Origin: Candidatus Melainabacteria bacterium
Lineage (GTDB): Bacteria; Cyanobacteriota; Vampirovibrionia; Obscuribacterales; Obscuribacteraceae
Assembly (NCBI GenBank): GCA_027451745.1
Contig: DAIDIP010000024.1
Span: forward strand, 1-37,896
Length of the DNA stretch: 37,896 bases
Direction of reading: 5' to 3'
The position numbers were made by a program, and so were the translations under genes. A model generated the notes under the pieces. That model did no database searches. It was not told the DNA's origin and was given only the letters and a program-made list of their open reading frames with translations. Below, piece by piece: positions 22,365 through 23,899 of this stretch; positions within the stretch are counted from its first letter, which is position 1, and each line of letters begins with the position of its first letter.

Positions 22365-22916
22365 TCATTTTTTGATTGAAATATCTTTTGACAATTTACA
22401 AATTTCTTCAAACAAATAAAATGCAGTCCGTTTATTTTGGTCCATTAAATTCAAAGTTAATATACGGATCTCGTCATTATCTACAGTGCTTTGCAAATTG
22501 AGGCGTAGAAAGCCATTTTTACAAAAATCACTTAACTCCTTTCCATATTGACTCGAAAACATTTCAGCCCATTCAATAATAACTAAACTTTCAGTATTTA
22601 AAACTTCTTCTATTTGTGCAGCAAGAAAAGAAAAGGGAATATTTGGTTGATCAATCAAACGATAAAGATCAATATGATAAAGGGGCAATCGCCCGCTGTG
22701 ATATTCATTCATCATCACAAAAGTAGGGCTAGTAACTGTTTCTTCGACGCCTAAACCATTAGCAATTGCCTTAACCAAGGTAGTTTTACCACTACCAATT
22801 TCGCCTGATAAAGCTAATACTGTATCAGGTTGAATAATCTGACCAATCGATTGGCCAAACTTTTTTGTTGATTCCAAATTAGCCAAACAAAGCTTTACTT
22901 GGTTATTTTCGGGCAT
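22365..22916 (-). CDS. tsaE: tRNA threonylcarbamoyladenosine ATPase TsaE
   Basis: 183 aa, a little longer than the usual 150-160. P-loop GEIGSGKTT (38-46), then TSPTFVMMNEYHSGRLP and HIDLYRL, and the late VIIEWAEMF motif: the full TsaE set. It works with TsaB and TsaD to make t6A on ANN-decoding tRNAs. No Shine-Dalgarno sequence precedes the ATG at 22916; the start is only about 7 bases after the closing stem of the structured RNA at 22924-23148, so translation may use a processed or read-through transcript of that RNA. Confidence 0.93.
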   Translation of the reverse strand: MPENNQVKLCLANLESTKKFGQSIGQIIQPDTVLALSGEIGSGKTTLVKAIANGLGVEETVTSPTFVMMNEYHSGRLPLYHIDLYRLIDQPNIPFSFLAAQIEEVLNTESLVIIEWAEMFSSQYGKELSDFCKNGFLRLNLQSTVDNDEIRILTLNLMDQNKRTAFYLFEEICKLSKDISIKK

Positions 22917-22923
22917 ATATATT

Positions 22924-23148
22924 GTCTCAGTCGAGGACTAGGGCGAGTTTTGACCCGGATTGTCCAGGTGGGGAACCTCCTAACGCCTCACCGTTTCCTA
23001 CTTCTCGGTTCAAACCGCTTATTATTGATCATAATAGATCACGGAAAGTCCTCTGAGCTTCATAGGTCTACGTCGTCGCTTCGAGCTGGAACCCCGATTC
23101 TCAAAGTTGTAGGACAAAACTTTTTAGAGCTCTGTCCTTGACCGAGAC
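22924..23148 (-). ncRNA. Structured RNA of about 225 nt with own promoter, 6S-like in shape
   Basis: The two ends pair over 15 positions with one mismatch and one G-U (5' GTCTCGGTCAAGGAC at 23148-23134; 3' GTCCTCGACTGAGAC at 22938-22924, minus strand). Inside, AGTTTTG pairs with CAAAACT, GGGG with CCCC, and TTTCC with GGAAA, leading to two apical hairpins (TATTAT/ATAATA and CGGT/ACCG). The result is a rod with internal loops. A promoter with TTGACA, 17 bp, TATGAT places transcription start at 23148-23149, exactly at the base of the closing stem. No long reading frame is credible. A rod closed by its own ends suggests 6S RNA (the RNA polymerase regulator); I cannot verify a sequence match, so the family is open. 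It is not tmRNA, RNase P RNA or SRP RNA by their conserved cores. Confidence 0.68.
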
Positions 23149-23155
23149 TAAACAA

Positions 23156-23184
23156 ATCATAGAAAACTGCGGTAAGGCTGTCAA
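23156..23184 (-). promoter_or_regulatory. Consensus promoter of the structured RNA
   Basis: Minus strand: TTGACA (23184-23179), 17-bp spacer, TATGAT (23161-23156), seven bases before the proposed RNA 5' end. The perfect -35 and exact spacing suggest high expression, as expected for an abundant non-coding RNA. Confidence 0.75.
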
Positions 23185-23317: not shown

Positions 23318-23899
23318 ATGGTTGATATGGCAAAATGGCTCGCTCTATTAATTGTTTTGGTATGCGAATACCCAGCATTTTCTCAGACCAACCTGGGGCA
23401 GGTTAATTCTGGACAAAGTTCCATAACAAGTGATCAAATTGGTGCTGATAATGCTAAACAAAGCTCTAACGGTTTAGAAATTCCGCCACCGCCGGCAATA
23501 GCACTTCCAGAGCCGGCTATTCTGGGGGAGTCACCTAATTCTTTGGCTTGGAGACTAAGAGCTTTTACTTTAGCTAACGAATATCCAATTAAAAAAAATA
23601 GTTTGATCTGGGCTTTGCCCATTGCTTATAACAAAGGACAAAGCCTTTTAAGACAAGCGATAAGTCAATTAGGTTTGCAGGTTTTATCACAGTATGCCGA
23701 AGCGGGGCAATTTCTCATAAGTAGTCCAGATTCTGGCAGCAAATACGAAATAATTGTTGTTAGTCAGCCAGTTAGCGAGAACACCACTCTCTTTAAAATG
23801 CGGACATACTTAGGTAGTCGCATAGTTGAAAATCAAACAGTGAGCACATTGCCTGATGTAATGAAGAACTTATTAGCTAATCAAGGTTTGTGGCAATGA
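23318..23899 (+). CDS. Small secreted protein of unknown function
   Basis: 193 aa. A signal peptide is evident (MAKWLALLIVLVCEYPAFSQ from the second Met), then a low-complexity Gln/Ser/Asn-rich linker and a Pro-rich stretch (EIPPPPAIALPEPA), then a globular domain of about 125 residues (from LAWRLRAFTLANEYP to the end) with alternating strands and helices that I do not recognise. ATG at 23318 has a weak GGTAAAAA site; 23327 is also possible. A TATAAT box at 23270-23275 may be its -10. Its stop overlaps the coaE start by four bases (ATGA), so translation is coupled, and the message continues to coaE. Confidence 0.75.
   Translation: MVDMAKWLALLIVLVCEYPAFSQTNLGQVNSGQSSITSDQIGADNAKQSSNGLEIPPPPAIALPEPAILGESPNSLAWRLRAFTLANEYPIKKNSLIWALPIAYNKGQSLLRQAISQLGLQVLSQYAEAGQFLISSPDSGSKYEIIVVSQPVSENTTLFKMRTYLGSRIVENQTVSTLPDVMKNLLANQGLWQ

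Follow-up and report, generated by a model that had tools for sequence, protein, structure and literature searches.

The window analysed here, i.e. the whole stretch of 37,896 nt, carries on its minus strand a 225 nt region (22924–23148, with nt 1 of the RNA at 23148) located directly upstream of tsaE (22365–22916, minus strand). The tsaE gene matches TIGR00150, where its 103.6 bits compare with a cut-off of 60.1, and also PF02367. Its ATG lies at 22916, 7 nt past the 3′ end of the RNA, and no recognisable Shine-Dalgarno sequence was found ahead of it. On the other side, and divergent to the RNA gene, a gene located immediately before coaE encodes a 193-aa protein (23318–23899, plus strand) that matched no Pfam or NCBIfam family. 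Upstream of nt 1 are a −35 element, TTGACA (23179–23184, minus strand), and a −10 element, TATGAT (23156–23161, minus strand), separated by a 17 nt spacer. With 11 out of 12 matching positions this is the top promoter-like site of the stretch, and judged by its sequence it is a sigma70-type promoter that would aim at nt 1, 7 nt downstream of the −10 element. The two ends of the region are complementary; nt 1–15 (23148–23134) pair with nt 211–225 (22938–22924) over 15 positions, including one A·C mismatch (nt 10 with nt 216) and two G·U pairs. The paired ends, a promoter pointing at the 5′ base of the stem, and a tsaE start about 7 bases past the 3′ end with no ribosome site had all been described in a first-pass annotation of this DNA, and all three hold, with coordinates that were right to the base.

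6S RNA mimics an open promoter and thereby keeps RNA polymerase in check. A search of the window against Rfam at the curated gathering cut-offs returned zero matches, which taken alone would suggest a new class of RNA; a relaxed search set that right. Using an E-value threshold, the window RNA gave a full-length match to the 6S family RF00013 (30.8 bits, E 1.4e-4 to 2.1e-4), a score beneath the gathering cut-off of 46.4 bits. RF00013 was the sole family matched by the region out of 4227 Rfam families, and the locus at 22924–23148 was its one match in the 3.0-Mb genome. A scan for tRNA and tmRNA genes found nothing here. A conserved protein frame was also looked for across the region, and none was found; the indels among the homologues are not multiples of three, and an antisense ORF of 80 aa matched no protein family. 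A coding reading of the region was therefore dropped. We conclude that 22924–23148 (minus strand) is almost certainly the single 6S RNA gene (an ssrS/ssaA homologue) of an Obscuribacterales genome, and a 6S function of its RNA is predicted by homology. It is a divergent yet genuine 6S RNA, i.e. a member of a known family from a lineage in which the standard threshold misses most copies.

RNAfold of the minus-strand RNA gave −79.0 kcal/mol with a z-score of −3.45; among 200 shuffled sequences there was not one of equal stability. The RNAalifold consensus, computed from an unfitted alignment, consists of a closing stem, a second helix (P2), a central bubble with a 3′ hairpin, an upper stem and an apical part. 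This is the canonical 6S architecture, and it is supported by covariation. The closing stem P1 is formed by nt 1–9 (23140–23148) and nt 217–225 (22924–22932), both with compensatory changes, and is extended in the rod by GGAC (nt 12–15, 23134–23137) pairing with GUCC (nt 211–214, 22935–22938), where columns 12, 13 and 15 are compensatory. P2 pairs AGUUUUG (nt 28–34, 23115–23121) with CAAAACU (nt 197–203, 22946–22952); it is near-invariant inside the order and covaries at class level. The 5′ side of the central bubble (nt 35–53, 23096–23114) is unpaired in the consensus and lies between P2 and the upper stem, which joins GGGGUUCC (nt 54–61, 23088–23095) to GGUUCCCC (nt 172–179, 22970–22977) and covaries as well. 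On the 3′ side, the bubble holds the small hairpin ACCUGG-ACAAU-CCGGGU (nt 180–196, 22953–22969), which has a similar counterpart in cyanobacterial 6S RNA. The apical part (22991–23074) contains an internal helix of GACGUA-ACCUA with UAGGAAACGG, compensatory in CCUA:UAGG, and a variable tip. The first-pass annotation had described a rod with two apical hairpins. The rod stands, whereas in place of the two hairpins there are the central bubble, the small hairpin on its 3′ side and a variable apex.

Homologues of the RNA are 177–245 nt long, compared with about 180–200 nt for a typical 6S RNA, and most of the variation is found in the apical tip. Most of the extra length over a typical 6S RNA is located in this tip, and the 225 nt are probably explained by the size of the poorly conserved apical region. 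Within this region GACGUA.ACCUA (nt 75–86, 23074–23063) and the facing UAGGAAACGG (nt 149–158, 23000–22991) belong to the best-conserved segments of the RNA, and their conservation exceeds what base pairing needs. A protein contact or a non-canonical internal loop is possible at this place.

Covariation was assessed in two alignments, A4 and A5, which were fitted to the tested structure and hence are biased towards it; A4 was used instead of A2, which contained antisense matches of the palindromic rod. In the 45 sequences from the order 97.2% of the pair cells are standard, and this falls to 35–58% when the partners are slid by 1–3 columns. Two-sided changes occur in 11 pairs at the order level compared with 4.8 in shuffles, and in 25 pairs and 200 cells for order and class together compared with 15.8 and 39.6. 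In both cases none of 500 shuffles reached the observed value, and the slid controls for order and class together were likewise far lower.

Of 60 relatives searched, 32 contain a DNA homologue of the 6S locus and 33 an RF00013 match; within the order both searches agree on the location wherever both match. Matches over the Rfam cut-off are few, two out of 33 in this search and one out of 35 in another, with one relative (L010) reaching 48.4 bits in cmscan. A model built without Rfam (model R1), for which 29 homologues were collected through DNA similarity and a sequence pattern, matches the window RNA with 191.6 bits and ends exactly at 22924 and 23148. It detects exactly one copy each in 46 of 53 Obscuribacterales genomes, and in 20 of 22 when the good-quality genomes are considered. 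The seven order genomes where a confident copy is missing are all draft assemblies; searching them with relaxed filters gave six negatives and, in the seventh, just a match with E 0.1.

In the wider class R1 gives weaker matches. At class-level loci read by both models the intervals of R1 and RF00013 nearly always coincide end to end, and two such relatives pass the Rfam cut-off (L146 with 52.5 bits and L155 with 46.8 bits). E. coli ssrS gave no match to R1, so the homology link passes through the class-level 6S RNAs; the shared intervals, two of them over the cut-off, close this chain. Across the phylum RF00013 was matched in 130 of 146 genomes, where the scores of nearly all photosynthetic members exceed the cut-off by far and those of most members of this class stay below it. 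Named database records with the core pattern belong to Candidatus Obscuribacter, Obscuribacterales and “Melainabacteria”, some with less precise labels. A pattern match in Chitinophaga (L058) was treated as chance. Two metagenome-assembled genomes titled “Actinobacteria bacterium” (L053, CAJCIF010000308.1) and “Proteobacteria bacterium” (L071, JAJPJO010000482.1) carry an Obscuribacterales 6S RNA, and their titles look mislabelled, since the same RNAs (L004 and L012) precede tsaE.

In the literature searched, no paper mentions 6S RNA in connection with Melainabacteria, Vampirovibrio, Gastranaerophilales or Obscuribacter. As nearly all copies fall under the Rfam cut-off, 6S RNA is apparently little or not annotated in the non-photosynthetic Cyanobacteriota. 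The R1 model and its alignment recover it in the 46 genomes mentioned above, predict a pRNA and reveal an alternative fold that can be tested.

Beside a divergent 6S RNA of the lineage, the first-pass annotation had considered a new RNA class. A class that is like 6S RNA merely in its rod shape would fit the score of the window RNA beneath the Rfam cut-off and the lack of a match between R1 and E. coli ssrS, but it leaves unexplained that the match to RF00013 is full-length, covers sequence as well as structure and is exclusive among the families searched. Furthermore, R1 and RF00013 find identical loci class-wide, several of them over the cut-off, the gene is present as a single copy, and the 6S RNA of photosynthetic members of the phylum carries the same 3′ bubble hairpin. 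A new class is accordingly very improbable and without support, whereas the RF00013 match, the homology to class-level 6S RNAs over the cut-off, the compensatory changes and the conserved promoter all speak for the divergent 6S RNA.

The position of tsaE raises another reading, in which the region is a long structured 5′ leader of that gene, a cis-regulator such as a riboswitch, and no free RNA is made. According to tblastn, tsaE is located downstream in 42 of 45 homologues, and no intrinsic terminator was found between the RNA and tsaE at the window locus. However, the spacing to tsaE ranges from 7 to over 200 nt among the homologues, the ends of the RNA pair with each other to give a closed rod, and the conserved core is that of 6S RNA, with no ligand pocket of any Rfam riboswitch. 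We consider a mere leader hardly credible; the 6S RNA may additionally act as one. The first-pass annotation had considered a link between RNA processing and tsaE expression; it is the synteny that is conserved, and a regulatory coupling would be hypothetical. The synteny and the absence of a terminator make co-transcription plausible, and by analogy with E. coli ssrS-fau tsaE and 6S RNA probably share a primary transcript, from which the mature 6S RNA would likely be cut. If the excision is precise, the tsaE mRNA would be nearly leaderless.

The promoter of the 6S gene is conserved. Of 45 homologues, 43 have a perfect TATGAT that lies 6–8 nt ahead of nt 1, and 34 have a perfect TTGACA at a spacing of 16–18 nt. 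In L018, L024, L025, L130 and L134–L137 the −35 box is absent and a TGN extended −10 stands ahead of TATGAT, as if one type of promoter had been exchanged for another at the same gene. Cyanobacteria possess sets of group 1 and group 2 sigma factors. The genome (G000) encodes four RpoD-type sigma factors that resemble these sets, at C6:19566, C11:82042, C3:72437 and C13:12445, scoring 387, 374, 343 and 296 bits against TIGR02393 (cut-off 354), i.e. two over the cut-off and two near it. That the genome has such housekeeping-type sigma factors is in keeping with a 6S RNA. In Synechocystis, 6S RNA has reportedly been proposed to arbitrate among sigma factors, and by analogy the 6S RNA of G000 may do so among its four.

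From its position, on the 5′ side of the central bubble and extending into P2, and its similarity to the pRNA of B. subtilis 6S-1, we predict the pRNA template to be AGUUUUGUCCUAC (nt 28–40, 23109–23121, minus strand), giving a putative pRNA 5′-GUAGGACAAAACU that would start opposite C40. The template start reads UAC, UAU or GAU in the homologues, so that for almost every homologue the first base of the pRNA, opposite C or U, would be a purine. Extrapolating from the 6S family, the RNA would adopt the rod, whose central bubble would imitate an open promoter and capture RNA polymerase with its housekeeping sigma factor, blocking the enzyme when growth stops. Once nucleoside triphosphates return, the polymerase would copy the short pRNA from the position opposite nt 40, and this synthesis would unwind P2 and free the enzyme. 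Transcription is expected to read through into tsaE, the mature RNA being trimmed from that transcript as for E. coli ssrS-fau. More tentatively, the freed or nascent 5′ part of the RNA could form a hairpin of nt 11–38 that shuts out P2 and aids refolding or release.

This hairpin (23111–23138, minus strand) appears in the minimum free energy fold of the window RNA, where nt 11–21 pair with nt 28–38, masking the template and excluding P2, a point to be set against the 6S assignment. The rod with P2 costs 2.1 kcal/mol more than this fold, and in ensembles across the family the hairpin and rod states are often balanced. Compared with shuffled versions of itself, the hairpin arm has a far higher stability across 34 distinct variants (mean z −3.8), and it occurs in two registers, GGACAGAGCU and GUAGGAUGAAGCU. 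If nt 10–16 (the first 7 nt of the shuffled part, which pair in P1) are held fixed, the mean z drops to −1.8, and the excess loses significance in about half of the 34 variants. No similar 5′ hairpin was found at class level, and a uniform one was not seen in the photosynthetic cyanobacterial 6S RNAs inspected. Since the template arm is invariant, compensatory changes cannot show in this hairpin, and as the variants are also related to each other, the evidence for it is suggestive at most.

Two readings of the hairpin were weighed. We lean slightly towards a by-product, in which GGAC is kept for P1 and a purine-rich loop pairs by chance with the invariant template. The smaller excess stability with nt 10–16 fixed agrees with this, as does an invariant template arm in which compensatory changes would be invisible anyway; the marked stability of all 34 variants over shuffles, in two registers, argues against it. 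A conserved two-state switch of the Obscuribacteraceae 6S RNA, in which the hairpin sequesters the template together with the P2 strand and the RNA would by this means time its own binding and release of polymerase, is conceivable but rather doubtful. If true, it would be a device for release and folding unlike the 3′ hairpin of E. coli and the collapse helix of B. subtilis; the literature searched on the 6S RNAs of these two species describes no such 5′ hairpin switch. A candidate for a collapse helix of the central bubble looks plausible by eye; in it the 5′ bubble would contribute CGAG or UGAG, to pair with CUCG or CUCA after P2.

Compared with RF00013 6S/SsrS RNAs in general, the RNA described here shares the full-length alignment with closing stem, P2 and upper stem, the central bubble with its CCACCUGG motif and 3′ hairpin, the single copy per genome and a consensus sigma70 promoter at the 5′ base. 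It differs in its score (30.8 against the cut-off of 46.4), a longer apical part and the conserved alternative 5′ hairpin. The SsaA RNAs of Synechocystis and Synechococcus, from the same phylum, have the same 3′ bubble hairpin, ACCUGG...CC(A/G)GGU, and similar template strands (AAGUUUUUUGAUCUAU vs AAGUUUUGUCCUAC). The 6S RNAs of photosynthetic cyanobacteria score far over the cut-off, whereas those of this lineage mostly lie under it and upstream of tsaE. SsaA binds E. coli RNA polymerase and templates pRNA in vitro (PMC5721685).

In B. subtilis 6S-1 the pRNA is GUUCGGUCAAAACU, started at nt 40 (PMC8876501, PMC12005410); the pRNA predicted here would likewise start opposite nt 40 and has a near-identical body (GUAGGACAAAACU). 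The small 3′ bubble hairpin of 6S-1 exists already in the free RNA (PMC8876501, PMC12005410), a further likeness to the present RNA. The 5′ hairpin predicted here joins the 5′ strand of P2 to nt 11–21, whereas for 6S-1 just a weak, unconfirmed pairing inside the 5′ bubble has been predicted. In the E. coli ssrS-fau dicistron a protein gene directly follows the 6S gene and the transcript is processed to mature 6S RNA (PMC7641849). The downstream gene is fau in E. coli and tsaE in the present lineage, for which the processing is proposed by analogy.
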